Below, one piece after another: positions 28,208-58,536 of a stretch of DNA of 64,000 bases. The translations under genes were made by a program, and so were the position numbers. The stretch comes from Pseudonocardia endophytica. GTDB lineage: Bacteria; Actinomycetota; Actinomycetes; Mycobacteriales; Pseudonocardiaceae. The stretch lies in the NCBI RefSeq assembly GCF_004339565.1, contig NZ_SMFZ01000002.1, positions 3,162,001 to 3,226,000 of the forward strand. The letters are read 5' to 3'. Below the pieces are notes generated by a model that made no database searches, had not been told where the DNA came from, and saw nothing but the letters and a program-made list of their open reading frames with translations. The stretch's first letter is position 1. Every line of letters begins with the position of its first letter.

Positions 28208-28819
28208 GTGTTCACCGGAATCGTCGAGGAGGTCGGCGAGGTCGTCGACCTCGTCCACAATGACGACGTCGTCGCGCTGACGGTGCGCGGCGAGCGCGCG
28301 GTCGAGGTCGGGCACGGCGACTCGGTCGCGGTGAACGGCTGTTGTCTCACCGCGGTCCGCCCGCCGGGCCGTGGCGAGATGCGCGTCGAACTCGTGCCGG
28401 AGACGCTCAAACGCACGTCGCTGGGCGCGCTGCGGCCCGGGTCACGGGTGAACCTGGAACGTGCGCTGCGTGCCGACGGCCGCCTGGACGGCCACATCGT
28501 GCAGGGACACGTGGACGGCATCGCCACGCTCGTCGGCCGCACGCCGGGCGAGCGCAGCGACGAGGTCCGCTTCAGCCTCCCGGCCGAGCTGTCCCGGTAC
28601 GTGGTGGAGAAGGGCTCGATCGCCGTGGACGGCGTGTCGCTCACCGTGGCCGCGCTGCACCCGGACGGGTTCGGTGTCGCGCTGATCCCGACTACGTTGG
28701 CGGACACCACACTCGGGTCCCTGCACCCCGGTGACCCGGTGAACATCGAGGTGGATGTGATCGCGAAGTACGTGGAGCGCCTGTCGGGCGGTTATACCCG
28801 CTCTGAGCTGGAAAGATAG
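28208..28819 (+). CDS. ribE: Riboflavin synthase, with C-terminus replaced by an inserted element
   Basis: A 203-residue enzyme that dismutates two lumazines to riboflavin. The start FTGIVEEVGEVVDL and the duplicated barrels are clear: NGCCLTAV near residue 42 and VDGVSLTV near 140, each with the lumazine-site pattern. The native body ends at VIAKYVER; the last 13 residues (LSGGYTRSELER region) lie beyond the 19-bp attachment core and are supplied by element A. The displaced tail [14 protein letters not shown] survives at 58490-58536 directly before ribBA. The C-terminal helix helps trimerization in this family, so the exchange may be nearly neutral. GTG 28208 follows a GGGAAGGGG site. Confidence 0.93.
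   Translation: MFTGIVEEVGEVVDLVHNDDVVALTVRGERAVEVGHGDSVAVNGCCLTAVRPPGRGEMRVELVPETLKRTSLGALRPGSRVNLERALRADGRLDGHIVQGHVDGIATLVGRTPGERSDEVRFSLPAELSRYVVEKGSIAVDGVSLTVAALHPDGFGVALIPTTLADTTLGSLHPGDPVNIEVDVIAKYVERLSGGYTRSELER
28761..28779 (+). other. attL: 19-bp attachment core inside ribE
   Basis: TCGCGAAGTACGTGGAGCG, coding for part of VIAKYVER. Identical copies lie at 54080-54098 and 58472-58490. The sequence to its left is native ribE and to its right is element A. Confidence 0.85.
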
Positions 28820-29023
28820 CCGTCTGGACCGGACCGCTCGGTTGAGCATGCCGCTCCAGCGTTGAGTTCTAGATATCTGCGCTGCAGGGATCGTGGTCCT
28901 GCACGCGTGAACTCGTCACGCGCTCCGGGCTCGGCTAGCGCTTGGCGAGCGGGTCGACCGATCGGCCGAGTGGTCCGGCGAGTATCGAGCCGGGCTAAGT
29001 TGATCGCGAAGTCGTCACCCGCG

Positions 29024-29392
29024 TCATCGTCGCTGGGCGACGACGGCGTCGGGAGGTGTGACGCCGTGGTGGGTGAGACGCCACCGTGCCATGTCGAGTA
29101 CGTCGTCGGGGCGCTCGCCGAACAGCGGCCGCCACTGTTCTAGTAGCACCTGGTATTCGATGGTTTGGGTCGCTCGGTCGAGTGCGAGCATGCGCCGGAA
29201 CCCGGATGACGAAATCACTGGTTGCATGATCAAGCGGCAGGTGAACTCGACGGCCTCGTCTCCGGTGTGCTGCCCGATCTCGTGCAGGAAGCGGGTCGGC
29301 CGGTAGGGGGTGTCGCGGATCAGCTCGGCGCAGACGTCGAGCTGGCTCTGGCGGAACTCGTCGGCGAGGGTCATGGCAGGCGTCTCTCTCAT
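29024..29392 (-). CDS. Hypothetical protein, 122 aa
   Basis: Not recognized. The product is soluble and helical, with the block QSQLDVCAELIRDTPYRPTR followed by FLHEIGQHTGDEAVEF and a C-terminal LEQWRPLFGERPDDVLDMA. The ATG at 29392 overlaps the stop of the upstream gene (ATGA); an alternative ATG at 29374, giving MTLADEF, has its own GAGAG site and would be 116 residues. It is the gene closest to the left end of element A. Confidence 0.6.
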   Translation of the reverse strand: MRETPAMTLADEFRQSQLDVCAELIRDTPYRPTRFLHEIGQHTGDEAVEFTCRLIMQPVISSSGFRRMLALDRATQTIEYQVLLEQWRPLFGERPDDVLDMARWRLTHHGVTPPDAVVAQRR

Positions 29393-29742
29393 CGACCCGG
29401 GGCGCGGGTGTGCGGCCCGCCCGGGGTGAACAGGTCGCGGGCGTTGTAGAGGCCGGCCTGGCGCAGCTCGGCGCGGCGGGCACGTTGATAACGGCGGCGG
29501 GCAGAGCCCATCCAGTGGGCCCACCAGACCAGCGCCCATAAACCGCCGGTCAGTACGGTGAGCATGACGTGCATGGCGTGTGGGAACCGCGGCTGTCCGT
29601 GGGCGATCTGGGACTCCGCCTGGACGTTGTGCACGAATTCGGTCCAGCCGGAGACCATCGGCGGTCGATCGTCGTTGCCCAGTACCCGGGACATCTCGGC
29701 GTCGACGGTCCGCCGCTGGCGGCCGGTCAGGCGTGCGTCCAT
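29389..29742 (-). CDS. Small membrane protein, 117 aa
   Basis: Not recognized. An N-terminal soluble part (about 55 residues) is followed by one hydrophobic segment at about residues 56-78 (MHVMLTVLTGGLWALVWWAH) and a basic tail rich in Arg, predicting a single- or double-spanning inner-membrane protein with cytoplasmic Arg residues. A GAGGAG site precedes the ATG. Coupled by a 4-base overlap to the following hypothetical gene, so the two probably act together. Confidence 0.65.
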   Translation of the reverse strand: MDARLTGRQRRTVDAEMSRVLGNDDRPPMVSGWTEFVHNVQAESQIAHGQPRFPHAMHVMLTVLTGGLWALVWWAHWMGSARRRYQRARRAELRQAGLYNARDLFTPGGPHTRAPGR

Positions 29743-29881
29743 CTGCTCTCCTCGATCCGATTGGTGTCTATCGCGCGTGTCATCAGTCGAATCGCGGCCA
29801 GATGGCCGGTGTTAGCGAGGGCTGATCGGCGTAGTCAGTACTGACTATCGGAGCTGCCGCGTCGGCGGCGGTTCGGGATTC

Positions 29882-30853
29882 TCAGGTCGCGAGCGGGCGC
29901 CGTCGCAGGAACTGCGAGGTCACCAGTTGTGCTCCGGCGTCGCGCAGCCCGGCGTAGAGCGCTACATCGACCGAAGCCGGGACGACCTCCCGGCCGCGGC
30001 CGAACGAGGAGGGCAGGCCGGTGGTGGGTCCGATCGCGATGCTGCGGTGCTCGCGTCGCAATTCTCGTTCGGCCGCCACGACCTGGTGGTGGGGAGCCTG
30101 CAGCACCCAGACGGGTTCGGCGCCGCCAGCGATATGGGCCTTGAGGCGCTCGCGGTCGCCGTGGCCGTACTTGAGCAGCGGGCCGAGCTCGGGGTGGTCG
30201 AAGCCGACCACGTAGAGCAGTTGCTGACGGTCGGCCCGAGCACGGTGGGTACGCGAGCCGGGCTCGGGCTCGCACACCGCGCACTCGGCGAGCCGGCGCA
30301 CGTTCTGCAGGGTTCCGCACGCGTCATGGCGGCCCCAGACGCCGTGGCTGTGCGGGTCGTCGGTCCATCCCCACGGCAGCCCCTTCAGGTTGCCGGCAAC
30401 GAGCGTCCACCCCGCCCGGTCGTAGAACCCCAGCTCGTCTTCGACGTCGAGCGCGGAGAACAGCTGAAACGCCTCGACATCGTCGACCCATTCGTCCGGG
30501 CCGAGATTCAAACCGTCGCGCAGCATGGCGGTCCGCTCCTCGTCGAGGTGCTCTCGCAGCTCCTCGGCGAGGCCGTCGAGCACCGCGTCGTCGAGCACGG
30601 TCCGCTCATCAAGACACGAATGACAGCGAGTCCGCCAACCGGGCCGGCACGCCCGTCGAGAGCCGCACACGCGGCAGCGCCAGATCTGGATCGCCGCGCC
30701 GCCCGGGCGGTCCCCTTCCAGCTCGGTCATCTCCGAGGCCACCTCCGCACACGGGCGGCACGAGTTCTTCCACGCCACTGCAGCCGGGACGCCACCCGAC
30801 CTGTGCGTGGGAACTCCGAGACCTGTGTGGCAGTTCGCGCACTCCTTCTGCAT
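29882..30853 (-). CDS. Zinc-ribbon protein with GIY-YIG-like C-terminal region
   Basis: A 323-residue protein. The N-terminal part holds several CxxC pairs (ECANCHTG, NSCRPCAE, RCRVCGS, RCHSC, then ECAVC), predicting multiple zinc ribbons of the kind seen with recombination and DNA-binding proteins. Residues about 215-275 run LLYVVGFDHPELGPLLKYG, then an Arg-containing helix, and AERELRREH; this resembles the T5orf172/MUG113 branch of GIY-YIG nucleases, with a Tyr pair, a conserved Arg and a late Glu. The nuclease call is inference by eye. ATG with GAGGA upstream. It may be a DNA-binding or nicking component of the element. Confidence 0.6.
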   Translation of the reverse strand: MQKECANCHTGLGVPTHRSGGVPAAVAWKNSCRPCAEVASEMTELEGDRPGGAAIQIWRCRVCGSRRACRPGWRTRCHSCLDERTVLDDAVLDGLAEELREHLDEERTAMLRDGLNLGPDEWVDDVEAFQLFSALDVEDELGFYDRAGWTLVAGNLKGLPWGWTDDPHSHGVWGRHDACGTLQNVRRLAECAVCEPEPGSRTHRARADRQQLLYVVGFDHPELGPLLKYGHGDRERLKAHIAGGAEPVWVLQAPHHQVVAAERELRREHRSIAIGPTTGLPSSFGRGREVVPASVDVALYAGLRDAGAQLVTSQFLRRRPLAT

Positions 30854-30887
30854 GGTTGTCCTCGTCGCCCGGTGAGCAGTTCGTGCG

Positions 30888-31682: not shown

Positions 31683-31793
31683 GGCGACACCTTCCGACGT
31701 GTGCGCGTTGTTTACGTCCATTCAGCGCATCAGCCCGCTACGCCGTTAGCGCCATTCATCACCTTTGACGAGCAAGCGCAGCGCGCACACTGT

Positions 31794-32609
31794 TCAGGTC
31801 TGGTGGATCGCTGAGCGTGCGGCGGTCATCACCGGAACGACGACATTCCGGAGATAGGCCCGGTTCAGCCCGCTCCAGCCGTCCTTGCCCCACGCGCTGG
31901 GATGCGTGAACCGAACGAGCAAGGTGGGCACGCCGCGCACGATGATCCGGGACAGGTGTGCGCCGGCGTCCTCGCGGTGCTCTACGACCGCGTTGATGGC
32001 CGTGCCGACCTCGCCCTGGGCGATGATCAGGGTCGGCTCGAGGATCTCGATCGTGTGGGCGAGGTGCCGCAGGCAGCGGTCGGACATGAAGCGGGTGCCG
32101 TGCGATTTCCGGCCGTCACCGTGAGCGGAGCAGAGCCGCACGTTGCTGGTGGCGCACGCGTCGAAGATGTGTGTTGGCTCGTCGAGGTCGAGCAGCTCGC
32201 CGAGACGGTCCGCGCCGATAGGGCGACCGAGCCCGAGACGGAGCGCGCTGGTCACGCCTTGCATGTGCGGGTTTCTCGCCATCATCGGTTTCGCGGCCGA
32301 GGCCATGATCTGCTGCCGTCGACGCTCGATGGAGATCCACTCCTCGGCCTCGCCCATCTCCATGCCAACGATCAGGATGCGAAGCGCGGTCTCGCCCTCG
32401 ACGAGATCGAAGTGCTGGCCGACATGGGGGAGCTGCGCCTCGGCGAACGCGACCCCCGCCCGTGGTGCCGCGTTCTTGGTGAACAGTGCGGATCGTCGGC
32501 ACTCGTCCCGGCTCGCGCAGACCATTCCGCCCTGCCCGAGCAGCTCCCGAGCGAAGTACTCGTTGAGGAGTTCGAGACGGGCCGCAGTCGTCTCTGGCTC
32601 GCTACGCAT
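31794..32609 (-). CDS. Uracil-DNA-glycosylase-superfamily-like protein
   Basis: A 271-residue protein that I cannot assign firmly. Residues about 75-110 (ILIVGMEMGEAEEWISIERR) and 165-235 (SDRCLRHLAHTIEILEPTLI then IAQGEVG) follow the GE-x-PG, helix and 'PLIIALG' order of the UDG fold, and HPSAW near residue 242 matches the late HPS motif that contacts DNA. The catalytic Asp/Asn equivalents are not obvious, so it may be an inactive sensor. ATG 32609 is preferred over the upstream GTG 32630, neither with a strong ribosome site. Confidence 0.5.
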   Translation of the reverse strand: MRSEPETTAARLELLNEYFARELLGQGGMVCASRDECRRSALFTKNAAPRAGVAFAEAQLPHVGQHFDLVEGETALRILIVGMEMGEAEEWISIERRRQQIMASAAKPMMARNPHMQGVTSALRLGLGRPIGADRLGELLDLDEPTHIFDACATSNVRLCSAHGDGRKSHGTRFMSDRCLRHLAHTIEILEPTLIIAQGEVGTAINAVVEHREDAGAHLSRIIVRGVPTLLVRFTHPSAWGKDGWSGLNRAYLRNVVVPVMTAARSAIHQT

Positions 32610-32707
32610 CGCAGCTTCTTGCCCGGCCACGCGCGGACAGTACCGAGCAGGCTTGCAGGGACGGCGTCGCCACCGTCGCCGGTTGCCCCCGTCGACGGCG
32701 ACCCGGC

Positions 32708-34461: not shown

Positions 34462-34509
34462 ACGGCGGCCGGACAAGCCCCATGTCACTCGCCGTGGCAG
34501 CCGGCCCGT

Positions 34510-35357: not shown

Positions 35358-35726
35358 TCACCCGTCGCTGCGGTTCCCATGGGAGTCGAGCAGTGTCCGG
35401 ACGGTCGCGAGCAGCACACGGATCTCGATGTCGGTCGGCGGCAGCTCGTAGGCGTGGCGGTGGTAGCTCCGGCTCAGTCCCTCCCATGCCGAGCGAGCGG
35501 CTCGGGACACGTCGGCCGGCGCTAGCGTGTCAAGGACGATCAGCCGGGTCCGCATCGGCGCGCCCGGCAGGTCGGCGTCGTGCGCGAGGCAGGCCTGAGC
35601 GACGACGAGTTCCAGCGCCTGCCGGCCGAGATGTCCGGCCGAGCGGGTCCGCTGGGCCGTCGGGACGTGGACGGTGCCGTCGAGCACGTCGCCGGCCTGA
35701 TTCAGCAGCGCCTCGGCGGAGGTCAT
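35358..35726 (-). CDS. Small HEPN-like protein, last gene of the defence-type operon
   Basis: A 122-residue all-helical protein beginning MTSAEALLNQAGDVLDGT. Residues about 28-45 (AGHLGRQALELVVAQACLAH) and 78-92 (WEGLSRSYHRHAYELPP) resemble the two core helices of HEPN domains; RSYHRH fits the Rx4-6H motif of HEPN ribonucleases. Its ATG overlaps the stop of the SMC-like ATPase gene (ATGA), so the two are coupled and may form an ATPase-effector pair. The HEPN assignment is mine by pattern only; a non-catalytic dimerization helper is the alternative. Confidence 0.6.
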   Translation of the reverse strand: MTSAEALLNQAGDVLDGTVHVPTAQRTRSAGHLGRQALELVVAQACLAHDADLPGAPMRTRLIVLDTLAPADVSRAARSAWEGLSRSYHRHAYELPPTDIEIRVLLATVRTLLDSHGNRSDG

Positions 35727-37387
35727 CGGATCGTCGCGCGCAGATCGTCGACCAGCCTGCCTACGCACTCGACCGCATACTTCGGATCTGAGCGGAGCGT
35801 GTCGTGGTTCGCGCTGCCGCACACACCGAGCGCGGTCGACCAGTACGCCACCGCGCGGAGCCAGCCGTCCGTGGAGCGCTCGCGGTCTCCATGGAGGGCG
35901 AGCGCGATCCGCTGGGGCTGGTTGCGCGCGTCGGACCAGGTGGACTCGACAACCTGCCGGTCCGCGCCGCCGGCGAACGCACGGGCGTACCAGGCGTCCC
36001 GGGCGGCGGTCTCGACGGCGGACCGGCACAGTCGCGGCACGACCCGGCGGACCAACTCGTCCGGAACCGCTGGGTCACGGACGAACGCCCGGGCGTCGTC
36101 CACGTCGCGTCGGGCGGGGTCCTGCGTGTCGCCGATCTCGATGACGGAACCGGCGGCGCGGGTGACTTCGACGATCCGGGCGTCCGGGACGAGCCTGCGG
36201 ACCGCCTCCGGCAGCCGGTCGTCGTGCGAGAACACGACGACCTGACGGGTCCGGGCGTGCTCGGCCAGCACCGACACCAGGCCGTCGATCTTGCTGGGGT
36301 CCATGGCCTGGATCGGGTCGTCGAGCACGACGAACCGGAACGGGCTCCCCGGACGGGTGGCGCGCGGCAGAAACAGGGCGAGGTCGCCGACGGCGGCCCG
36401 GAGGTCCCCGGCGGCTCGGTCGACGGTCGCGCGGTCCGGCAATTCCAGGTCGGCGAGGTTCCGCAGGGAGCCCAGCGCGCCGGCGGAGGTCGCCCGGGAA
36501 CCGGTCGCGAGGGCGCGGAGCGCATCGAGATCACGGGAGTGCTTGCGCAGCAGCCGCAGCGCTTCAATCGCGCGCTCGTCCGTCGACTCCGCGAGCGCTT
36601 TCTTCACGGCCGTCGCCCCGGTCCGGGCGTCGTCGACGGGAGCCGATGTCGTCTTCTTCAGCGTGTCGAGGCGTTGTTGCGCCGTGACCAGCTGGTCGAG
36701 CCCGAGGATCGCGCACAGCGCGTCGTAGAGCTTCTTCGGCTCGGCGGTCAGCAGGCCGCTGACCTCCTCGTAGGACAGGATCGGCCGGTACAGGCCGATC
36801 GCGGTGCCCCAGCCGAGGCTGCCGAGCCCGTCCTCGCGCTTCGCGCCGGGCCGCTGTACCCAGCTGGTCAGGTCGTCGAACCGTTCGACGCCCGGTGCCC
36901 AGTCGATCCCGACAGTCGTCGTGCCGACGTCCTGCTCGCCGATCCGGATGCGGATGTGCCGCGGCCCGCGTACGTGCAGGTTTCCCCAGGCGTTCTGCCA
37001 GTCGGCGGCGCGCTCGGCCCAGCGGTAGCTCTTCCGCGTGAGGCCGACCTCCAGGGCCTCGGCGAACGTGGACTTCCCGGAACCGTTGCGACCGGCGACG
37101 ACCGTCAGGCCGGGTGCGGGGTGCAGGGTCAACGTGCGCTCGGGGCCGACCCCGCGGAAGCCGCTGACTGTGATCGACTGCAGGAAGGCGCCGACCGGCT
37201 CGGTCGAGGACCCCTTGCCCGCGGGCGCCGGCTCGGGGCAGTCGTACCGGCCGTCGGCGGCGTCGGCGAGCGCGGCGTCGCCGTCCAGTGCGGCGAGGAC
37301 GAGGTACTTGACCTCGTCCGGTGTGGAGCCGTCCTCGTCGGCGAGGGTGAGGACCACGTCGACGAGGGGATCCGGCGGGGTCGTCAT
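35723..37387 (-). CDS. SMC/RloC-like AAA ATPase, shortened and lacking the ABC signature
   Basis: A 554-residue ABC-type ATPase. Walker A GRNGSGKSTFAEALE is near residues 97-111, Walker B FVVLDDPIQAMD near 351-362 and the H-loop VVFSHDDRLPEA near 380. Between Walker A and B there are only about 245 residues, with little coiled coil, and the ABC signature (LSGGQ-type) expected just before Walker B is missing: the region reads AAVGDLALFLPRATRPG. This looks like an internal in-frame loss compared with SMC-like relatives, which would hamper ATP-sandwich dimerization. GGAGG precedes ATG 37387. It follows the helicase gene by 67 bases. Confidence 0.8.
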   Translation of the reverse strand: MTTPPDPLVDVVLTLADEDGSTPDEVKYLVLAALDGDAALADAADGRYDCPEPAPAGKGSSTEPVGAFLQSITVSGFRGVGPERTLTLHPAPGLTVVAGRNGSGKSTFAEALEVGLTRKSYRWAERAADWQNAWGNLHVRGPRHIRIRIGEQDVGTTTVGIDWAPGVERFDDLTSWVQRPGAKREDGLGSLGWGTAIGLYRPILSYEEVSGLLTAEPKKLYDALCAILGLDQLVTAQQRLDTLKKTTSAPVDDARTGATAVKKALAESTDERAIEALRLLRKHSRDLDALRALATGSRATSAGALGSLRNLADLELPDRATVDRAAGDLRAAVGDLALFLPRATRPGSPFRFVVLDDPIQAMDPSKIDGLVSVLAEHARTRQVVVFSHDDRLPEAVRRLVPDARIVEVTRAAGSVIEIGDTQDPARRDVDDARAFVRDPAVPDELVRRVVPRLCRSAVETAARDAWYARAFAGGADRQVVESTWSDARNQPQRIALALHGDRERSTDGWLRAVAYWSTALGVCGSANHDTLRSDPKYAVECVGRLVDDLRATIR

Positions 37388-40400: not shown

Positions 40401-40562
40401 CGCCGTCGGCGCCGTGATGATCACGTCCGGATCCTCGGCGAGCACTGGGCCGACGGCCGCGGCCTGGACCGGCCGTAGCGAGCTCCATCCCGTCGCGTTC
40501 AGCCAGCGCTGGACGCCGAGGTGGAGCCGCATCTGCTCAGAGGCTGAAGTCGCTGAGCTCAT
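37455..40562 (-). CDS. Lhr-like DEAD/DEAH helicase fused to DEDDh 3'-5' exonuclease (Shango helicase-like)
   Basis: A 1035-residue fusion. Residues about 30-480 are a superfamily 2 helicase with TAPTAGGKTEAA (motif I), VVVDELHAF (II), LSATLA (III), STLEMGVDIG and QRMGRSGRRGG (VI). After a winged-helix-like region, residues about 760-930 are a DnaQ-type exonuclease with VDAETTGFD, AHNADFDHRF and HSALADADATG carrying the DEDDh residues. The last 60 residues (HVITADEERRLTDLA) form a small helical domain. The ATG at 40562 overlaps the ATPase gene by 26 bases; ATG 40532 is an alternative. In operon with TerB and ATPase genes, it corresponds to the helicase of Shango-type defence. Confidence 0.88.
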   Translation of the reverse strand: MSSATSASEQMRLHLGVQRWLNATGWSSLRPVQAAAVGPVLAEDPDVIITAPTAGGKTEAAFLPICSRLAGSRDDGPVPAGVEVLYVSPLKALINDQYDRLGLLCRDLEIPVHRWHGDVPASAKARIRRSPAGIVVITPESLEALFVTAGPDVARILGGLRYVVVDELHAFLGTERGMQLQSLLHRAEEVLGRRVPRIALSATLASSQAAREFLRPGAGEQVQHIDTGQRGDVRLRVFGHQRRNPTTTGAEDEPSDLVAISERLFTGMRGRDHLVFANRRSDVERFADKLSRLSDEYRVPNEFFAHHGNLAKQEREFVEQRLKDDGLPTTAVCTSTLEMGVDIGSVDAVAQIGPPPGVASLRQRMGRSGRRGGVPRLMVHVGEDEISEQISPLDELRPRLVQTVAMIQLMGDRYLEAPDPAHPHLSTLIQQVLSVIAQRGGASASALFGTLCDRGPFRRVDQPMFVDLLRAMGAAELLQQGSDGLLLAGRVGDRMVNHYSFYTAFHTPEELRVVHGSRTLGTIAADHTIRVDGLLLFGGRRWRVVEVETDKKIVMVTPSSGARPPRFEGSGGPLVADEVRRRMRRIYLSDDVPGWIDAEAAGLLGEGRAAFARLGLAHTGFVSRGNETLVLPWRGDKIMNTLAVLMQTHGLAVAQDGVALTVDGVSAQSLQDLLAGLAASPAPDALELAAEVPGLELDKHDRYLPRELLVHSYAARFLDAPNTWQAVRDLGSTAATTPAPTQVPARGRATLGTTPFAVVDAETTGFDADGADRIVEIAVVRLAPDGSLLDSWCTLVNPGRSAGPTALHGLTSADLARAPAFDDVADDLLAKLGDAIVVAHNADFDHRFLHTELTRAGRPAPQWPVLCTRRLAYRLASATSRRLTDLCRSEGLHHEGAHSALADADATGRLLSVYLKRADAGGITTAADLGVAPLVLPTAPPAPSNPAEVHLRTTAPPDRRVLAGDASGDPRLDAFLDLLETVLADHVITADEERRLTDLATATGLTAAQVAACRHAANVARPERPMFRTAGIPRP

Positions 40563-44102: not shown

Positions 44103-44369
44103 GCCCCACGGGCGTGGACCGCCGTCGGCACCCGACGATTGTGGAGCACGGTCGACCAGACGGTTGGGGTGCCCCTGTCGCAGCGTCGGTAGGACAGCGG
44201 GTCTACGGTGTCGCGTCCGGCGGGTGTCGTACGCGTTCGTGAGGACCTGTCCGGTCCAGCGCAACAGGGCCGCAAGGAGCAGCGATGTGCGGGACATGGA
44301 CACGACGATCGCGCCGCGTCGACGTACGCGATCTGCATCCGTCACCTGCCCCGGCGCAGCACTGCGGGT

Positions 44370-46851: not shown

Positions 46852-46894
46852 GATGGCCTCCGTCGTCTCTCGCCGTGGCGGCCGCTCGTGTCGA

Positions 46895-49800: not shown

Positions 49801-50068
49801 CGTCGAGGGCCACGACCGCACCACGGCCGTCGAGTTCGTCGCGCAGACGGTCGCGCAGCTCGGCGGCGGCCTTCTCGGTGAACGTGATCGCGGCGATCTT
49901 CCGCATCGGCACGCCCGAGGTGACGAGCGCGGCGATCCGCTCGACCAAACTCCGCGTCTTCCCCGATCCCGCTCCGGCCTCGACGAACAGCGAGCGATCG
50001 AGATCGTCGCGAATGCGGTCCCGGTCGGTTTGGTCGACCGGCCGGGTCCGGGGCGCGCTCGAGGTCAC
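46895..50068 (-). CDS. AddA-like UvrD-family helicase-nuclease
   Basis: A 1057-residue superfamily 1A helicase with a C-terminal nuclease. Motifs in order: FVEAGAGSGKTRSLVERI (Walker A, near residue 25), LLLDEFQDTDRIQ (Walker B), VGDPKQSIYRFRRAD, ITTVHASKGLEFPFVVL and LLYVAATRAT; the C-terminal PD-(D/E)XK block is EGYVDLLF then GLVLVDYKTDQ near residue 1000. It resembles AddA, which unwinds and degrades double-strand ends together with AddB. The GTG start overlaps the AddB-like stop (GTGA). Actinobacteria normally use AdnAB for end resection, so an AddAB-type pair on a mobile element is better explained as defence or element-specific recombination. Confidence 0.85.
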   Translation of the reverse strand: MTSSAPRTRPVDQTDRDRIRDDLDRSLFVEAGAGSGKTRSLVERIAALVTSGVPMRKIAAITFTEKAAAELRDRLRDELDGRGAVVALDELDGAAIGTLHAFARRILSEHAIEAGLPPLLEVLDHVASQVAVDRRFDELQTELLDDPEMSSTLRLAFAAGLKLPHVRELYRAFDSEWDLVSERVDPTPPPTLPPRIDDLRLRARELAAQRDRCDNHADKLAVRLAELEDWADRADVVDEARILTSLGSAPRAGRIGQAGNWGGAAGIAAVRDELVAWRDDVETRHGEVVDRVLRRLAAWVGSRVLAAADERRAQGRLQFHDLLVLARRLVRDSADARAALQRRFPRLLLDEFQDTDRIQIEVALRIACGAEADASDWRDLTPPPGSVFVVGDPKQSIYRFRRADIATYLDARDVLDDRVDLTTNFRSTHAIIDWVDTTFAALISERAGAQPAFVPLEPRPDAEGGDPVVVLGAAAHAELRADAVRAEEARDIASLITTALCDGDVVRDGDGTRPVRAHDIAILVPTRASILGLEEELDRAGIAYRTEAATFVYSAPEIREVMLCLRAVDDPSDELAVVSTLRSSLFGCADAELWRWRDAGGSWNPFAPTPDGQGDCRVADAMNVLSRWSRGRSRRTPAELLDDVLDARRVLEAAVDGPRYRETWRRLRFVVDQARAWSEAERGSLREYLRWASQQAEDRARVTETVLPERDTSAVRITTVHASKGLEFPFVVLAGLGSGPATVRPTVLWPASGNYELRLGKDRPTAGYEAADAEELDLEACERIRLLYVAATRATSRLVVSLHRRSGRQCAAATLAAACPIVPWTRPDDIAPLPGRRPHVEPLTRWEVWDEARHRALAAGKRPEAESATDIAHERASAELPSLVRHGLAKQPRDLELSAWRKGRYGTAIGRAVHGVLQTIPLDTGEGLNELAEAQAIAEDVPGYIDEIAAAVRSALAAPTVQRAAGRSPLREIYVGTEIDGTLVEGYVDLLFRDDDGLVLVDYKTDQATGAESIAAYVTQLEVYARAIADAVCEQIVRRVLVFLRPRGAIEYEVEES

Positions 50069-53037
50069 GACTCCTCCCCGAACAGCAGGGTGCGTACGGC
50101 GGGTAGCTCGGCCAGGCGGTCGTCGTCGGCGAGGCGCATCCAGTCGTCGCCGTCGACACGCTCGCCGAGACCGTCCGGCTCGCAGGCCGGGCAGTCGATG
50201 CGGACGCGCCCGAGGTAGTGCTGGGCACCCGAGGGTCTTGGCGGGAATAAGCCGCCTGCGATGCCGTCCACGATCGCGCCGACGGTCGTCAGTGCGCTGG
50301 CCCGCAGCTCGTCGTCGATCTCCAGGTCGGTCCGCTCGAACCTCTCCCGACCGGTCACATACCAGTAACCGGCCCGGACCGGCTCGCCCGCCGGGTGCTC
50401 GAACTCCTCGGCCGCGACGAGCGCGTAGAGGGGGAGCTGCAGCCGGCGTCCGCCGTTCCAGGGATCCGTGTCGTCCGAACGCGGCCGGCGGCCGGTCTTG
50501 TAGTCGGTGACGACGATCCGTCCCGACGGATCGCGGTCGATGCGGTCGACGGCTCCGCGGAGCCGAACCGTCCGCCCGTCCGGCAGCGGCAGGTCGACGC
50601 CCGCGAACTCCCACTCGGTGACGACCGGTCGGAGGTCACCGCCACCGCGCAAGGCGTCGTCGTGCCCGATCCACGCCGTCAGGTCTTCCAGGATGGCCTC
50701 TTGATCGTCGCGCCAGAGGAGCGCTGCGCCGGTGAGTCCGGCTCGTTCGACCGCGGTGAACTGCTCTCGGGCGAGCTCGTCGAGCACCTCTCTCGTGTCG
50801 TCCGGCCACGGCCGCCCTGGTTCCGGGAGCCATCCCTCTTTCCCTGCCGTCGCGACCAGCTGGTGCAGTGTGCGGTGCACGATGTCACCGCGGACCAGCG
50901 GCGACAGGGTGACCACGTCCTCCGGCTGGACCGGGGCGGCCGCGCGCAACATCCGGCTCACGAAGTAGGCGAACGGGCAGCGAGCCCACCCCTCCAGCGA
51001 GGTCGCGGAGATCGACGAGACTTCCCCGGGCACCGGGAGACGTTCGGCGGACAGGTCGCCGTCGAACGGCCCAAACGTCCGCACGCTGCGTTCGGCCCGT
51101 ACCTGCGCCGCCCGCTCCCGGATCTCGTCGGACGGCGGGCTACCGGCGGCGACCGCCTTCTGCCGCCATTCCTGCGGTGTCGCCGGCTCAGCCCGTCCGA
51201 GGACCGAGCCGGCGTAGGACGGTCGTTCTTCGACTCCGGCGGCAGTCCGGTCCCAGGACGTGCTGCTGACCGAGTCATCGCCCGTCAGCGCCCGCAACGT
51301 CGGCAGCAACCAGCGGGACGGCACCCGGACGCCGCCGCCGCGCAGGTCACCGCGCGGGAAGCTGAGGGTCCGCCCGCCTCTCGGGGCCGCGGAGAGCGCC
51401 GCGAGCAGGTCCCGGTGCCTGCGGCGGGTGCGCTCGGCGATCGTCGGCAGTCCGAGCGGCTCCCGGACCCGGTCGGGTAGCAGTGGGTCGTCGACGTGCC
51501 GTCCGGGTAACAGCCCCTCCGCCATGCCGAGCACGATGACGTGGTCCACGTCCTCGCCGTACCCCTCGGACAGCGGGCCGACGTGCACTCCGGTCCCGAT
51601 CGTCCCTACCCGGTCGGTGTCCTCCGAGAGCTGCATCTCGAGCAACTCCCGTGCCATCACCGCGTCGGGCGTGCCGTCACCGAGTGCGCCGATCCCCTCG
51701 ACGGCGGCGCCGATGCGTTCGACGGCGCGTGCCTCGTCCGGGGCCAGTCGATCGAAGTCCTCCCCGGCCACGGCCGAGGCCCACAGACCTGTCAGCTCGT
51801 CGCCGAGATCGGCCCAGGTCGTCGCGTGGGCGCAGCGTTCGAGCCGGTCGCGCAGGTCGGTGACGAACGCCAGCAACGCGTCGGCGTCGTCTGCCTCTCG
51901 TCGCAGCCGATCGGCCGGAGCAGGCTCGGCGGTCTCCGCTCTCGTGCGGCGCTCGGCCGCGAACGCGGTAAGACGTTCCCATCCGCCAGGTGAGGCCCAC
52001 CGGATGACGCCGGCGGTCCGAGAGATCCGGTCCCATCGTGAGGCAGGCACCCGTTCGCCGTGGTCGCGGACGGGAGCATCGGTGAGCCAGCCGATCACCT
52101 CGTCGCGGCGGTAGCCGTGCTCGGGAAGCTGGAGCATTCGCAGCAACCCGCGTCCGAACCGTGTCTCCACCGTCGTGCGGACGCCGCGTCCGGAGTACGT
52201 CACTCCGGCCCGCGAGAGATGGTCGTGCAGAAGCCGGGCGTAGGGATCGGCTGCGGTGTGCAGCAACGCAATGCGATGGCCCGCAGTCCCGTCGCGCAGG
52301 ACGTCGACGACATCGCGTACTGCCGAGCGGACTTCTTCGTCGGGATCGGAGGCGTGCACGACGCGATCCGCGACGACCGTCGGATCCTCGGCACCGTCGA
52401 TCACGTGCAGCTCTCCGTGCGCCGCAATTACGTCCAGCAGGGCCCGTTCGGGCGCCGTCGAGTCACGCGGGAGGAATGCGACGACGTCGTCCTCGACCCG
52501 ATGCGCCGTTGCGGCCGCAGCGTCGAGCAGATCGACCTCGTCGTAGCCGTCCAGCCGAACCCGTTCGAGGAGGGCGCGGTGAACTCGTGCCGTGTCCCGT
52601 GCGACGGCCTCGTCGTCAGGGATCCGATCCGTCGCTCCAGGCGGGAGTTCCCTGAGGTCTCGATGGGCGTCGACGATCGCCCGCAGCGTTCCCACATGCT
52701 CGGCGACCGGCCCGAACACGCCGGGTTCCTCGGTCAGGAGATCGCGAACGGCTGCGGCAAGCCGGGTTCCGGTCAGTGGACGCCGGCCTTGGGCCACGAG
52801 TTCGGTGGCGGCCAGGGACTCGGCCAGGCGTCGCAGCGTGGTGATGCGTAGCGCCGCGATGCCCGGTGTGCCGTCGCCCCGGGCCAGGGCCCGCCGGGCC
52901 GCGACGCCGACGCGTTCGGACGGCACGACGACCGTGACCGGCCGCAGCGGATCGTCGCCCTTGACCTGCCGGACGACCTGTACCAGGGCTCGGTAGGCCG
53001 GTGAACCGAATGGTGCGGAGCGCAGGGTGCGCGCCAT
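50065..53037 (-). CDS. AddB-like PD-(D/E)XK nuclease / helicase-like protein
   Basis: A 990-residue protein starting MARTLRSAPFGS behind GGAGG (the GTG at 53043 would overlap that site). The N-terminal part has the helicase-like AddB/RecC architecture (VVVPSERVGVAARRAL, HVIVLGMAEGLLPGRH) without a Walker A. The C-terminal nuclease has SLEGWARCPFAYFVSRML and LRGAVDRIDRDPSGRIVVTD-YKTGR; the Cys in ARCPFAYF together with CPAC near the C-terminus probably binds an iron-sulfur cluster, as in AddB. It is the first strong gene of the operon with AddA-like and the nuclease-ATL fusion. Confidence 0.82.
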   Translation of the reverse strand: MARTLRSAPFGSPAYRALVQVVRQVKGDDPLRPVTVVVPSERVGVAARRALARGDGTPGIAALRITTLRRLAESLAATELVAQGRRPLTGTRLAAAVRDLLTEEPGVFGPVAEHVGTLRAIVDAHRDLRELPPGATDRIPDDEAVARDTARVHRALLERVRLDGYDEVDLLDAAAATAHRVEDDVVAFLPRDSTAPERALLDVIAAHGELHVIDGAEDPTVVADRVVHASDPDEEVRSAVRDVVDVLRDGTAGHRIALLHTAADPYARLLHDHLSRAGVTYSGRGVRTTVETRFGRGLLRMLQLPEHGYRRDEVIGWLTDAPVRDHGERVPASRWDRISRTAGVIRWASPGGWERLTAFAAERRTRAETAEPAPADRLRREADDADALLAFVTDLRDRLERCAHATTWADLGDELTGLWASAVAGEDFDRLAPDEARAVERIGAAVEGIGALGDGTPDAVMARELLEMQLSEDTDRVGTIGTGVHVGPLSEGYGEDVDHVIVLGMAEGLLPGRHVDDPLLPDRVREPLGLPTIAERTRRRHRDLLAALSAAPRGGRTLSFPRGDLRGGGVRVPSRWLLPTLRALTGDDSVSSTSWDRTAAGVEERPSYAGSVLGRAEPATPQEWRQKAVAAGSPPSDEIRERAAQVRAERSVRTFGPFDGDLSAERLPVPGEVSSISATSLEGWARCPFAYFVSRMLRAAAPVQPEDVVTLSPLVRGDIVHRTLHQLVATAGKEGWLPEPGRPWPDDTREVLDELAREQFTAVERAGLTGAALLWRDDQEAILEDLTAWIGHDDALRGGGDLRPVVTEWEFAGVDLPLPDGRTVRLRGAVDRIDRDPSGRIVVTDYKTGRRPRSDDTDPWNGGRRLQLPLYALVAAEEFEHPAGEPVRAGYWYVTGRERFERTDLEIDDELRASALTTVGAIVDGIAGGLFPPRPSGAQHYLGRVRIDCPACEPDGLGERVDGDDWMRLADDDRLAELPAVRTLLFGEES

Positions 53038-53129
53038 GTGCACCTCCGTGGGGAGCGGAGACCTCGGAGGTTAGAAGACTTTGCGAGCACGGCCCGCGGC
53101 GGGGCCGATCGAAGCGTCGACGGTCAGTG

Positions 53130-53534: not shown

Positions 53535-53930
53535 CGGAGCACCCTCACATCTGCGATCGCGCCAGTGTGGTCCGGTTGCGTGGGACGCCTTAGCTCGAAT
53601 CCAGGTCTGCCTTCAACCCGGCGTGGTGGGCCAGGCGGGCGACCCACTCGGCGGCGATGGCGAACAGGGAGCCTGACCCGGTTCTCCGGACACCTGCCCA
53701 CCTTCCGCCCGATGGAGGGCCGCGGTGCGGGCGTCACGGTCGGACTGCGGTCCGCGTCTGCGCGCGGAAGGGCGCCACGGCCTTGTTGGGGCGGATCGAC
53801 GAACACGGCGCTGGGAAGGATGGCGCCCTGAACGTGTTGTGCCGGAGGCGTGGCCGATCGGTGCGGGGGTCGGGTGGTTGACTGGCCCGGCGGCGTCGTT
53901 TCGGTTGAAAGATGGTCGGGGAGTCACGCG
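53535..53930. other. No gene seen
   Basis: About 400 bases before the right arm of element A. The open frames here have no ribosome binding sites, domains or coding bias that I can defend. Confidence 0.5.
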
Positions 53931-54098
53931 TCATGTCACATCCCGTGTGGGAGCGGGGTGCGTCATGATGGAAGGATCTCGGCGAGGAGAGGGTGCGCAG
54001 GTGAAGGATATTGCAGGTCACGCCGCTCGGCGGCGACCAGCGAAGAGCCTGCTGAGCATGCCGTTGAGGTCGCCCCTAGTCGCGAAGTACGTGGAGCG
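53931..54098. repeat. Right-end arm of element A
   Basis: About 168 bases ending in the attachment core. They align over their whole length with 58324-58490, more than 80 percent identical by eye, with small gaps. Differences in the 105 bases next to the core fall equally on all three codon positions, so the arm looks like a recombination site rather than a gene. It contains CGCCG-n5-CGGCG. Confidence 0.75.
54080..54098 (+). other. Middle attachment core between elements A and B
   Basis: TCGCGAAGTACGTGGAGCG, identical to the copies in ribE and at 58472. It is followed in the ribE frame by codons for MTADYR and TAG at 54118-54120, a third version of the ribE tail. Confidence 0.85.
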
Positions 54099-54267
54099 GA
54101 TGACCGCTGACTATAGATAGCCTGAGCTGCGAGAATGCTGTCTCGGTGGAGTTCGGTCGACAAGCAAGCCGCTCCGGGTCACGATATGAGCCGTGGCTCG
54201 TCGGACCACGATCACTCGGCGAACTCGGTGAAGCTCTTCTCTTCGTACGCCGAACGTTGCGAGCCTG

Positions 54268-55038
54268 TCAGGATTCGTTGGTTCTCGAGCGTCCCCACCA
54301 CGCGACCGCTCCGGCGGTGAGTACGACGGCGATCGAGGGCACCAGGACCACTTGTGGCGCGGTGAAGAGGTACTCGCGCCCCTCGGCGACCATCGCGCCC
54401 CACTCCGCCGTCGGCGGCTGCACCCCGAGACCGAGGAACGACAGCCCGGAGATCGTCAGCAGCGTCGCCGCGAACCGGACGCGCGCGTGCGCGGCGAGCG
54501 GAGCGGCGATGTTGGGTCCGACGTGGCGCACGAGAACGCGGACCGGACCCGCGCCGAGACTGACGGCCCCGGACACGTAGTCGCGGCCCGACTCGACGAG
54601 CGCGAGGAGGTAGGTCTGGCGGGCGAACGGGGTCCAGCCGATCAGCGACACGGCGATCAGCACCGAGGCGATCCCCGGGCCGAGTACGACAGCCGCCAGG
54701 AGCCCGAACAGCACGACCGGTATGGCGGCGAGGACGTCGACGACCCGAATGAGTGCCTGGCCGACGACCCCGGTCGCCGCCGCCAGCAGGCCTACCGCGA
54801 CTCCCGTGAGTCCGGTGACCAGCACGGTCAGCAGGCTCAGCCCGATGGTCAGCCGTCCGCCGTCGACCACACGGGCCAGGAGATCCCGGCCCAGCTGGTC
54901 GGTGCCCAGGGGATGAGCTGCCGACGGACCGGCCAGCAGCGCGGCGAAGTCGGCGGCGTCCGGATCCGGGAGCAGGAGCGGGCCGACGAGCAGGACGACC
55001 GTTGCCGCCCCGAGCACAGCCGCAGGCGCGTGCTTCAC
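54268..55038 (-). CDS. Peptide/nickel-type ABC permease (DppC/OppC-like)
   Basis: A 256-residue inner-membrane permease with about five or six helices. The N-terminal block HPLGTDQLGRDLLARV is diagnostic of the DppC/NikC side of the heterodimer, and the C-terminal GLGVQPPTAEWGAMV block is the cytoplasmic coupling region. The segment around SLIGWTPFARQTYLLALVE includes the binding-protein-dependent transport loop. The ATG overlaps the stop of the partner permease (ATGA). No ATP-binding genes follow before the element end, so the importer must borrow ATPases from elsewhere or be defective. Confidence 0.85.
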   Translation of the reverse strand: MKHAPAAVLGAATVVLLVGPLLLPDPDAADFAALLAGPSAAHPLGTDQLGRDLLARVVDGGRLTIGLSLLTVLVTGLTGVAVGLLAAATGVVGQALIRVVDVLAAIPVVLFGLLAAVVLGPGIASVLIAVSLIGWTPFARQTYLLALVESGRDYVSGAVSLGAGPVRVLVRHVGPNIAAPLAAHARVRFAATLLTISGLSFLGLGVQPPTAEWGAMVAEGREYLFTAPQVVLVPSIAVVLTAGAVAWWGRSRTNES

Positions 55039-55973
55039 GAGCGCGACCGCAGGATCGGGTCGACCGCGATCCCCGCGACCTCGACCAGAACTCCGGCTGT
55101 CGCCGCGACGGCGAGGACCAGCATCGTCCCGCCCTGGACGACGGGCAGGTCCTGGGCCAGCACGGCGTCGTGGAGCAGGCGCCCCAGTCCGGGGATCCCG
55201 AACAGGACCTCGACGACGACCGACCCGCCGAGCAGGCCGGCGACGAACATGCCGGACAGGGCGGTCACCGACGTCGTCGCCAGCCGTGCGCCGTGGCGCC
55301 AGAGCACGAGATGGCTGGACAGTCCCTTCGCGCGGGCCTGGAGCACGTGTGGACGCCCGAGTATGTCGGCGGTCTCTGCCCGGACGAGCTGGGCCGCCAG
55401 CGCGGCCGGGTAGGCGGCGAGCGTGAGGACCGGCAGGACGACGTGTTGCGGCCCGCCCCAGCCGACTGCGGGAAGCAGGCCGGCGCCGACCGCGAACACC
55501 AGCACCAGCCAGGGCGCGAGCACGAATTCCGGCACGGAGACGCCGGCGATCGTCGCGGCCCCGAGCACCCGGTCGAGAGGACCTCCCGGCCGGCGGGCGG
55601 CGTACACCCCGGCGGGGATCGCGACCGTGGCGGCTACCAGCACCGCGAGTACGGCGAGCAGGCCGGAGACCGCCGCGGCGTCCGTGATCTGATCGGCGAC
55701 GGGTGTCCGGGCGACGTATCCGTATCCGAGGTCGCCGTGCAGCACTGACCGGAGCCAGCGCAGGTACTGCTCGACCGGCGAACGGTCCAGGCCCAGCTCG
55801 GTCCGGACCAGCGCCTCGGCGGCCGGGTCCGGCACCGCGTCCGCGCTGCGCGCCCGCAGCACGGCGCGCGCCGGGTCGACGCCGACGAGCCGGGGCAGCG
55901 CGAACACCAGAACGGACGCCAGCAGCAGGATGACCGGGACCGGTACGAGCCGGCGCAGCAGGAGTGCGCCCAC
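55035..55973 (-). CDS. Peptide/nickel-type ABC permease (DppB/OppB-like)
   Basis: A 312-residue permease. The GTG start at 55973 gives a product beginning with GALLLRRLVPVPVILLLASV, the typical first helix; the much longer open frame upstream is a shadow of the binding-protein gene. The FGIPGLGRLLHDAVLAQDLP segment is the conserved EAA-type loop of DppB. It lies 5 bases after the binding-protein gene and overlaps the next permease by 4 bases, so SBP-DppB-DppC are cotranscribed. Confidence 0.85.
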   Translation of the reverse strand: MGALLLRRLVPVPVILLLASVLVFALPRLVGVDPARAVLRARSADAVPDPAAEALVRTELGLDRSPVEQYLRWLRSVLHGDLGYGYVARTPVADQITDAAAVSGLLAVLAVLVAATVAIPAGVYAARRPGGPLDRVLGAATIAGVSVPEFVLAPWLVLVFAVGAGLLPAVGWGGPQHVVLPVLTLAAYPAALAAQLVRAETADILGRPHVLQARAKGLSSHLVLWRHGARLATTSVTALSGMFVAGLLGGSVVVEVLFGIPGLGRLLHDAVLAQDLPVVQGGTMLVLAVAATAGVLVEVAGIAVDPILRSRS

Positions 55974-55978
55974 GGGGG

Positions 55979-57514
55979 TCAGGCCGTCGGTCTCAGCTGC
56001 GGCAGCACCGGGCGGATCTGCAGCGGGTCGGGCACGAACCCGGTCGCTCCGCGCAGCACGGCCGTGTTCAGCGGGTGTACCACCATCACCCCGACGGCGT
56101 CGGCGGTGAGCATCCGGGCCGCCTCGGCGAACAATGTCTGGCGCGCCGCCGTGTCGGCGGTCCCGTTCAGCCGGGCGATCAGCGCGTCGTAGGCCGGGCT
56201 GCAGTACTGGTCGATCGCGTAGCTGCCACCGCAGGTGTAGTCGGAGGTCAGGGTGCTGGCCGCGTCCGGGAAGTCGGACAGGTAGCTGCGCGAGTTGAGG
56301 AACATGTCGTACTCGCCGGCGAGCACCTGCGGCTCCTGCGCGTCGTAGTTGCCGACGGTGACCTCCACGCGGACGCCCGCCGCGCCGAGCATCGCTTGGA
56401 TCGCGTTCGCCAGCGCCGGGAGCTCCGGGCGGTTCGGGAACGTCCACAGCCGCACTGTGAGCGGGTTCTGCGGCCCGTAGCCGGCCTCGGCCAGCAGTGC
56501 CTTCGCCCGCTCGACGTCCGCACCCGGGGGAGGGGTGCGCTCGCCCCACGGTACGGCCGCGCCGAACAGATCGGCGGCCGGTGCGGCCCCGCCGCCGAGC
56601 ACCTGTCCGGCCAGGACCGGGCGGTCGATCGCCGCCGTGACGGCCTGGCGTACCCGCAGGTCGGAGAACGGGCGGGCGGACTGGTTGAGCTGCAACGGGA
56701 CCGTGCGTGCGTTCGGGTACTCGACGACCTCGGCGCCCGCGGAGCGGACCTGCTCGACCTGGGCCTGGGGAAGTCCCTCGGCGAACTGGACGTCGCCGGA
56801 CTGTACCGCGAGCGCGCGGGCCTGCGGGTCGGTGACGTAGCGCACGGTCACCCGGGCCGCTCCGGCACGCGTGCCCCAGTAGCGGTCGTTGCGCACGAGG
56901 ACGGCGGAGTCGGTGCCGTTCACCTGGTCCAGCACATAGGGGCCGGTAGCGGTGCGCCGTACCTCTGGTGCCCCGCCTCCGGCGTACGCGCCGGGCGACA
57001 GTATCCCGAGGTTGCCGCTGGACAGGCGCAGCGGCATCACCGGGTCCGGCGCCGCTGTGGTGATCCGGACGGCGTCCGGGCCGTCCGCGTCGATCGTGAA
57101 TCCGATGCCGCGGATCGACCGTGGCGGGGCGGACACCGACGCGACGTAACGCAGGGCGGCGACGACCGCGGACGGAGTGAGCGGGGTGCCGTCGTGGAAC
57201 ACGACGCCGGGGCGCAGCGTGAACCGCCAGCTACGGCCCTGCTGCGTCCACGCCGTCGCGAGCGAGGGGATCGGCCGGACCTGGTCGTCCACGCTGGTCA
57301 GAGTCTCGGCGACTCCGAGCGACTGGAGCCGTGCGCCGTCGTCGGCGTCGAATGCATAGGCCGCTCGCGGTGGGAACTGCAGCGCCACCGCCAGTTCGCC
57401 GTCGGGGTCGGGTGTGCCGCCTCCCGATCCGCCCGCCCCACAGCCCGACAGCACCAGGGCCGCCGCCACGAACGCCACCACCGCACGCTTGCTCACGACG
57501 AGCGATGAGATCAC
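55979..57514 (-). CDS. Solute-binding lipoprotein, SBP_bac_5 family
   Basis: A 511-residue lipoprotein. The N-terminal signal ends in the lipobox LSGC (AAALVLSGCGAGG), so it is anchored outside the membrane by a diacylglyceryl Cys. The family block GRSWRFTLRPGVVFHDGTPL near residues 93-112 and DLRVRQAVTAAIDR near 265 are typical of oligopeptide or nickel binding proteins. GTG 57514 is the assigned start; no ribosome binding site is obvious and GTG 57496 is an alternative. Ligand cannot be deduced from sequence. Confidence 0.85.
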   Translation of the reverse strand: MISSLVVSKRAVVAFVAAALVLSGCGAGGSGGGTPDPDGELAVALQFPPRAAYAFDADDGARLQSLGVAETLTSVDDQVRPIPSLATAWTQQGRSWRFTLRPGVVFHDGTPLTPSAVVAALRYVASVSAPPRSIRGIGFTIDADGPDAVRITTAAPDPVMPLRLSSGNLGILSPGAYAGGGAPEVRRTATGPYVLDQVNGTDSAVLVRNDRYWGTRAGAARVTVRYVTDPQARALAVQSGDVQFAEGLPQAQVEQVRSAGAEVVEYPNARTVPLQLNQSARPFSDLRVRQAVTAAIDRPVLAGQVLGGGAAPAADLFGAAVPWGERTPPPGADVERAKALLAEAGYGPQNPLTVRLWTFPNRPELPALANAIQAMLGAAGVRVEVTVGNYDAQEPQVLAGEYDMFLNSRSYLSDFPDAASTLTSDYTCGGSYAIDQYCSPAYDALIARLNGTADTAARQTLFAEAARMLTADAVGVMVVHPLNTAVLRGATGFVPDPLQIRPVLPQLRPTA

Positions 57515-57528
57515 CTGATCGACTGTTC

Positions 57529-57735
57529 ATGCATACATTCGTGATGTACGCCCCGTTTCGGGCGCGCAATGACCGGCCGCTGATGGACGCGATCCTGCGC
57601 GACAAGGTCCGGATCGCGGAGGCGGTCAACGCCACGGTGATCACCCTCCACGACGCGCCGCAGGGGTACGCCCAGTTCGCCTCCGGGGCGGCGAGGAAGT
57701 TCGTGAGCGATCCGCACCGGCTGATCGGCGCCTGA
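57529..57735 (+). pseudogene. C-terminal fragment of a zinc-type alcohol dehydrogenase
   Basis: A 68-codon frame whose end (RPLMDAILRDKVRIAEAVN, DAPQGYAQFASGAARKFVSD) matches the last 55 or so residues of medium-chain zinc alcohol/formaldehyde dehydrogenases, which run 'LDEAPQGYREFDQGAARKFVLDPHG'. The catalytic and cofactor domains are missing. It is a truncated relic at the 5' edge of the importer genes. Confidence 0.7.
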
Positions 57736-58323
57736 TCCGCTGGAGACCGGCCGGTCGAGCACCGGGACCGACGTCGCTCGTCGTTCCCGGCGCTCGCCGT
57801 CGGGCAGTTGCGACAAGGAAACGTGCCGGCGCACGAGTCGAGGTCTGCGCTTCGCCATCGCCGCTTGTTGCGGTGCAGAACCTCCGCGAGATGAACCGTC
57901 AGGCGTTCGATCTTGACGGCTTCCGTACGGTCCCGTGCCGGACGTCAGCCCTGGAGTGGCGGGTGGTGTGCTGGCCCCATACCGCCCCGCGGGTGATCAC
58001 CGCTGCCGTGACGGCCCCGCATCGCCGTGCCAGAAGGGCGTCGGCGTGGCGTGGATGGCTTGTGTGACAGACCATTGCCGGATGGCGACCCGTTCGGGTG
58101 CACGCGCCGGGGCGACCGGGAGGCGTGGCGGTGGTTCCGTCTGGCGGGGGTGGATCTCCCATGGACTCCGGGGATCGGGTGGTGGCTACGGTGTGCGCCA
58201 TGTTCCCGAGGACGGACCGGGTGGTACCTGGCTCTGGTCGCTCGGATGTCGGGGCGTCACCCGGTGGTTGTGACGACACGGTCGGAGTTGTGCCGGGGCG
58301 GGACACGGTGGACGGTCGGCGTG
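57736..58323. other. No gene seen
   Basis: About 590 bases of G+C-rich sequence with overlapping open frames but no domains or ribosome binding sites. I searched it for a recombinase fragment and saw none. Confidence 0.5.
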
Positions 58324-58490
58324 TCATGTCACATCCGCGGTGGGCGCGGGGTGAGTCATGATGGCGGGAGATCTCCGACGGGGAGGGTGCAGGTGAAGGA
58401 CGTTGCAGGTCGCGCCGCTTGGCGGCGACCAGCGAATAGCCTGGTGAGCATGCCGTTCAGGTGGCCCCTAGTCGCGAAGTACGTGGAGCG
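58324..58490. repeat. Right-end arm of element B
   Basis: Counterpart of 53931-54098. Shared blocks include TCATGTCACATCC, CAGGTGAAGGA, TTGCAGGTC, GGCGGCGACCAGCGAA, AGCATGCCGTT and CCCCTAG directly before the core. Confidence 0.75.
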
Positions 58491-58536
58491 GACGACCGCC
58501 GGATACCGGCCGGAGACCGAAGGAGACGGCCGGTGA
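58471..58536 (+). pseudogene. Displaced native 3' end of ribE
   Basis: Twenty-two codons, [21 protein letters not shown] and a stop at 58534-58536, continuing the ribE frame interrupted at 28779. The stop overlaps the ribBA GTG, showing that ribE and ribBA were once directly coupled. Confidence 0.85.
58472..58490 (+). other. attR: attachment core before ribBA
   Basis: TCGCGAAGTACGTGGAGCG, third exact copy. Element B arm on its left, native ribE tail on its right. Confidence 0.85.

Follow-up and report, generated by a model that had tools for sequence, protein, structure and literature searches.

Many genomic islands sit in protein-coding genes and reconstitute them (PMC12884075). Among the described kinds, cis-mobilizable elements (CIMEs) are, according to PMC5704250, elements without integration and transfer genes that keep both attachment sites, attL and attR, and that accrete in tandem. 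Here, we describe two adjoining units that separate ribE, encoding riboflavin synthase, from ribBA in Pseudonocardia endophytica. They lie within a 64,000-nt stretch of DNA (NZ_SMFZ01000002.1, positions 3,162,001 to 3,226,000), which is hereafter called the window and whose positions serve as coordinates throughout. We conclude that the tandem insertion at ribE is genuine and site-specific, and that it is made up of decayed or cis-mobilizable islands that bring defence cargo to an unusual address.

The locus shares features with three described systems and departs from each of them. Like CIMEs, the units lack integration and transfer genes, keep attL and attR and form a tandem array at one gene end; unlike them, they have no integrative and conjugative element (ICE) or integrative and mobilizable element (IME) as a partner beside them, their target is ribE, and their cis-mobilization is putative (PMC5704250). 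The island PAISt of Streptomyces turgidiscabies is likewise actinobacterial, occupies the 3' end of a coding gene (bacA) and comprises two modules, with a direct repeat on either flank and another between them, but it has a tyrosine recombinase, shown excision, an 8-bp palindromic core and other cargo (PMC4057263). PAISt homologues in other species are reported to be fixed by erosion of intSt and of the sites, a situation like that of the ribE units (PMC4057263). Finally, dusA-specific IMEs and the ICE SXT in prfC also insert into coding genes, the element supplying promoter and frame; however, those elements enter 5' ends and carry int, whereas here the 3' end is used and the gene in need of a promoter would be the next one, ribBA (PMC8409611). 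A promoter within the ribE units is itself a suggestion from the sequence only. We found no literature linking riboflavin synthase to an attachment site, the longer result lists being covered in part, and riboflavin, ribE and ribC gave no match in PMC10654092.

Results

The 19-bp core TCGCGAAGTACGTGGAGCG occurs in three exact copies on the plus strand, at 28761-28779, 54080-54098 and 58472-58490. A window search allowing up to three mismatches gave no further copy, and three core matches were reached in none of 100 shuffles. Throughout the P. endophytica genome (7.57 Mb) the same three sites are the sole exact copies; one extra site matches with two mismatches, and a reversed control pattern likewise gave one match at up to two mismatches. 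Left of copy 1 lies ribE (28208-28819, plus strand; Lum_binding, 1.6e-50; the GTG start is our choice), and right of copy 3 lies ribBA (58533-59888, plus strand; DHBP_synthase, 1.1e-82; GTP_cyclohydro2, 6.3e-73). The core encodes KYVER, which is conserved in ribE of relatives, and each copy is followed in the ribE frame by a short tail and a stop. At copy 1 this tail is LSGGYTRSELER-stop, which replaces the C-terminal tail of ribE, while copy 2, spanned by a short open reading frame (ORF; 54058-54120, plus strand), continues into MTADYR-stop. The tail at copy 3 stops at TGA 58534-58536, overlapping the ribBA GTG at 58533. Thus, the repeats, their tails and both flanking genes are as the first-pass annotation of this DNA had described them. 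ARAGORN found no tRNA genes in the window.

The cores delimit unit 1 (~25.3 kb; 28780-54079), which reaches from core 1 to core 2, and unit 2 (~4.4 kb; 54099-58471), which reaches from core 2 to core 3; no recombinase was found in either. Copy 1 is thus attL of unit 1 and copy 2 the junction of the two units, while copy 3, behind which the original ribE tail continues, is attR of unit 2. Because the left flanks of copies 2 and 3 match over ~180 bp (53927-53985 versus 58320-58378, 80%; 53997-54107 versus 58389-58499, 92%), a likeness that the first-pass annotation had not mentioned, we regard 53927-54079 and 58320-58471 (both plus strand) as the right arms of the two units. These arms are 86-87% alike over ~180 bp and therefore related, yet they do not represent a fresh duplication. 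An alignment of the left ends of the units showed a looser likeness. The left arm of unit 1 (28780-28865, plus strand) consists of a degenerate ribE 3' end followed by TGAGCATGCCG at 28843, a motif that is also found in both right arms (54053 and 58445).

The first-pass annotation had proposed comparing the ribE-ribBA junction for empty sites. A protein search located ribE and ribBA in 148 of 149 genomes each, and both genes lie on one contig in 59 of the 61 same-genus relatives. The gap between the matches measures 42-174 bp in 58 of these 59 and 1023 bp in the remaining one, G014. In the other two relatives (G044 and G040) the contigs end inside ribBA, and inspection by eye showed ribE reading straight into ribBA in both. 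Judging from the 58 short gaps and these two read-throughs, 60 of 61 same-genus relatives are empty at this site, while ribBA of P. endophytica starts 29.8 kb past the ribE match. None of the relatives carries this gene content between ribE and ribBA, so the refuting condition named in the first-pass annotation, relatives with the content but without repeats, did not occur. The gap survey also took in 14 genomes from outside the genus; gaps of ~650-850 bp were seen in seven genomes of other families. A 7.1-kb gap in G066 (locus L060), from another family, holds two long ORFs and has no 12-mer junction repeat, and was judged unrelated.

The one occupied relative, G014, which we take to be Pseudonocardia humida from a sequence match, holds a 0.9-kb insert that is unrelated to the units and sits at the identical ribE point, between two copies of CGAAGTACGTGGAGCGG (contig C32; positions 7249 and 8194 of locus L061). 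It contains an excisionase-like helix-turn-helix ORF (TIGR01764, 30.2 bits with a cut-off of 28.8; phrog_66, 7.9e-10), and our home-made integrase profile found no integrase-like ORF in it. Its right arm matches that of unit 1 at 73% over 91 bases, core included, and in each of the three right arms 25 nt separate an ATG from the core. All borders share a minimal stretch of ~16 bp. A pattern of right arm plus core, searched across 84,980 species, matched one locus, in P. humida S2-4. With up to three mismatches it matched four of 390 family genomes, namely P. endophytica (two sites), G014 and two others, the latter with three mismatches, without the core as such and chance-like. The pattern gave 0 matches in IMG/VR, none in INPHARED and, in PLSDB, only five records at chance level (10-15% query coverage, E 0.2-0.7); the P. 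endophytica genome or its near kin may have been left out of some of these collections. A shorter arm pattern was too loose to discriminate, as a control pattern matched equally often.

With 60 of 61 relatives empty and an unrelated insert with a related right arm at the same point in P. humida, the proposed site-specific tandem insertion at the ribE 3' end is upheld. We assign a probability of about 0.78 to the reading that two islands inserted there in tandem, with attP copies keeping the ribE frame. The attP of each island would have carried a copy of the ribE end codons, so that on insertion ribE stays in frame and acquires a short replacement tail at the left, its original tail being displaced to ribBA at the right. 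The short shared core flanked by conserved arms, TGAGCATGCCG included, points to a tyrosine recombinase as the probable agent of insertion. This enzyme would since have been lost from both units or would act from elsewhere, and the units may still be movable in cis or in trans.

Several observations weigh against this reading. Six-frame searches of the P. endophytica genome gave ten matches to PF00589, none of them between the cores, and three to PF00239, all on another contig (contig 1). The home-made profile, built from nine integrases, found nothing at E <=1 among six-frame stretches of at least 40 aa in the window. Outside P. endophytica, the right-arm-plus-core pattern was found in one species only. 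Furthermore, the unit 2 genes are native to the clade, so that homologous exchange or rearrangement at pre-existing repeats could also account for that unit.

A Pfam scan covering 40 ORFs found among them no recombinase, no relaxase or transfer ATPase, and no FtsK-like transfer and replication genes as used to define actinomycete ICEs (AICEs). PHROGs matches for eight window ORFs scanned were to families of unknown function only, with no phage structural or packaging genes. Taken together, the PF00589, PF00239, home-made profile and Pfam searches, the last of them over 40 ORFs, lead us to reject a recombinase encoded inside the units, and the term "integrative elements" of the first-pass annotation is not supported in the autonomous sense. 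As in integrative islands, each border bears a direct repeat of the end of the target gene, and the site is empty in 60 of 61 relatives, but these searches showed no tyrosine or serine recombinase of the units' own. As in a CIME, attL and attR are kept and integration and transfer genes are absent, the latter judged from the 40 ORFs. The units are therefore best described as putatively decayed or cis-mobilizable islands rather than autonomous elements. Since neither yielded an insertion enzyme, we place them with a known kind of decayed mobile island, at an address that is unusual for it.

Alternatively, the units could be active integrase-less satellites driven by a recombinase encoded elsewhere, on a helper element or a plasmid. 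Three inserts in two species share arm and core and have no recombinase, and P. humida retains its excisionase-like gene beside the arm. However, no helper with arm and core appeared in the 84,980 species, IMG/VR or INPHARED, plasmids gave chance-level matches only, and decay accounts for the same facts; we consider such satellites unlikely, though worth serious attention. The non-Xer integrases of P. endophytica and G014 include related pairs (61% over 253 aa; 76% over 100 aa, one of them a short ORF), yet nothing ties one to ribE; this comparison covered 14 of 16 extracted stretches, some apparently in wrong frames. Relatives of the excisionase were matched in 15 of 62 genus genomes. An integrase-like ORF was present in two of eight neighbourhoods examined, and in the same eight any likeness to the ribE core or arm went no further than short, weak matches.

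It is also conceivable, if rather doubtful, that a single composite island with an internal core arrived in one event. The two units share their orientation and have related right arms, and whole tandems can move together according to PMC5704250. On the other hand, the arms differ by ~14% and the cargo differs, and the divergence of unit 2 from relatives' orthologues resembles that of metE (78% versus 81-82% in DNA), as expected for clade-native genes.

In keeping with two separately inserted islands, the units differ in their gene content. Unit 1 holds genes matching the PADLOC models SngA, SngB and SngC, the three that the Shango system requires together; they lie in order on a single strand. 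On the minus strand these are a SngC-type helicase whose C-terminal part holds a DnaQ-type exonuclease domain at residues 758-910 (37455-40562; SngC, 1.2e-256; RNase_T, 1.1e-22), a SngB-type ATPase of the BrxC/D kind (40537-41880; SngB, 3.1e-175; BrxC_BrxD, 9.5e-149) and a SngA-type TerB protein (41877-44396; SngA, 6.4e-83; TerB_N, 9.9e-56). All three resemble the PADLOC models, and the exonuclease domain on SngC is an addition to them. The fusion protein has ~1035 aa, compared to 720 in the PADLOC profile. An AAA/SMC-type ATPase gene adjoins the Shango genes (35723-37387, minus strand; SMC_N, 3.8e-11), and upstream of them lies the helix-turn-helix gene remnant of an insertion sequence (IS) transposase (44562-44834, minus strand; HTH_Tnp_1, 18.3 bits, below the cut-off of 24.1), which matches an IS gene of the relative G050 in DNA.

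Further along unit 1, still on the minus strand, follow the candidate defence protein PDC-S11 with a NucS-like nuclease stretch (45439-46980; PDC-S11, 5.4e-54; NucS, 25.6 bits, far under the cut-off of 216), a UvrD-type helicase with a PD-(D/E)XK domain, whose true start is probably internal to the ORF (46895-50614; UvrD-helicase, 2.8e-47; PDDEXK_1, 1.6e-8), and a PD-(D/E)XK nuclease protein (50065-53043; PDDEXK_1, 2.7e-35). The helicase-nuclease and nuclease gene pair at 46895-53043 resembles AddAB-type pairs and, adjoining the PDC-S11 candidate, may form a second defence system. Unit 1 also holds small hypothetical ORFs. AlphaFold models of two of its uncharacterized proteins (29882-30853 and 31794-32630) had mean predicted local distance difference test (pLDDT) scores of 36.8 and 33.6, too low for use. 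Judging from the families of its Shango, nuclease and helicase genes, unit 1 is probably a defence island.

SngB was found in five of 62 genus genomes, P. endophytica included. The ribE site of G050 is empty, yet this relative has a Shango stretch (L125:8290-19212) that is 77% identical in DNA and adjoins both a homologue of the ATPase gene and a tyrosine integrase. Thus, the same cassette travels at another address too.

Unit 2 carries a transporter set on the minus strand, comprising an ATP-binding cassette (ABC) permease (54268-55038; BPD_transp_1, 1.1e-19), a second ABC permease whose true start is probably near 55990 (55035-56549; BPD_transp_1, 4.2e-26) and a solute-binding protein (55979-57514; SBP_bac_5, 3.3e-73). 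A match at E <=1e-80 is present in 35 of 62 genus genomes. Searches for an ABC ATPase signature were negative for unit 2 and for the sequence immediately following the set in G001 and G043, so that truncation of the set is not evident. Sixteen relatives carry the set elsewhere, with orthologues of the solute-binding protein at 74-83%, either on a contig other than that of ribE or >1.6 Mb from ribE. The set adjoins metE in G001, G041 and G043, while the metE locus of P. endophytica lacks it, as does that of G036. Unit 2 therefore looks like a transporter set from the same clade that was relocated or acquired.

This distribution would also fit an intrachromosomal rearrangement in which the native set moved between pre-existing core copies. 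Such an event would, however, leave unexplained why the right arm and the left end of unit 2 resemble those of unit 1, and we regard it as improbable. That the repeats never had a mobile history, being either chance or conserved sequence derived from ribE, is strongly disfavoured: the core does encode the conserved KYVER, but two of its copies are found 25 and 30 kb away from ribE, and neither the lack of any other exact copy in 7.57 Mb nor the empty site in 60 of 61 relatives fits this view.

Returning to the tandem insertion of two islands, we examined what it would mean for ribE. A script deletion of 28780-58490 yields a ribE end resembling the KYVER[LM]TAGY tails of relatives. Tails were compared for 29 of the 61 relatives; past KYVE[RK] most of them continue as [LM]TAGY before diverging, which shows that change is tolerated in the far tail. 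Over the first 20 nt past the core, copies 1 and 2 each agree with the best relative at 13 of 20 positions, a value reached or exceeded by 1.1% of 10,000 random unit 1 stretches. The P. humida tail, which lacks the GY residues, agrees at 12 of 20 against 12 relatives, equalled in 2.2% of 5000. These tests were post hoc. Of the proposed re-tailing of ribE, the part that stands is that each of the three tails preserves both frame and stop; likeness to the tails of relatives lies weakly above chance (~0.01 per tail). Re-tailing by the elements is thus weakly supported as a possible outcome of insertion.

At the right end, the question is how ribBA might be expressed. Of 29 relatives compared, 26 have an RTG overlapping the stop codon of ribE, an arrangement consistent with coupled translation of ribBA, and the insertion separates the two genes. 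Every right arm has an ATG that shares the frame of the KYVER codons, and reading from this ATG runs to the ribBA start both at copy 3 and in P. humida. At copy 3, this gives a short ORF (58450-58536, plus strand) in frame with the displaced ribE tail, its stop overlapping the ribBA start. A possible -10 box, TAGCCT (58437-58442, plus strand), lies 7 nt before ATG 58450, as in a leaderless arrangement. A TANNNT 7 nt before the arm ATG is present in two of the three arms, at copy 3 and in P. humida, but is missing at copy 2, which has no gene behind it; across the window, three of 791 ATGs have one 6-8 nt upstream, 58450 included.

Other features speak against a coding or start role of the arms. 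The differences between the unit 1 and unit 2 arms fall 2/2/2 over the codon positions, showing no bias, with 0 synonymous and 6 non-synonymous differences over 23 codons. Moreover, the left arm, which precedes no gene, has the ATG-holding motif too. A sigma-70 scan of 57900-58600 found no promoter, which counts against a leaderless one, and Rfam returned nothing over 18000-64000, so no flavin mononucleotide (FMN) riboswitch was seen. The in-frame ATG and possible leaderless -10 box before ribBA are suggestive only of a restoring role. A broader proposal would see here a recombinase-less family with an unseen helper, whose left end re-tails ribE and whose right end gives a leaderless promoter and an ATG that keep ribBA translated; we hold this to be a speculative and fairly unlikely extension.

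Discussion

With our analysis, riboflavin synthase joins the protein-coding genes that serve as island addresses, and it does so from inside a coupled metabolic operon. At this address a defence system is stored without an integrase of its own. If a helper exists, the locus would be a readily usable model of actinomycete satellites that have no integrase. And if the right end does restore ribBA expression, the ribE units would exemplify an element that repairs two neighbouring genes at one insertion.

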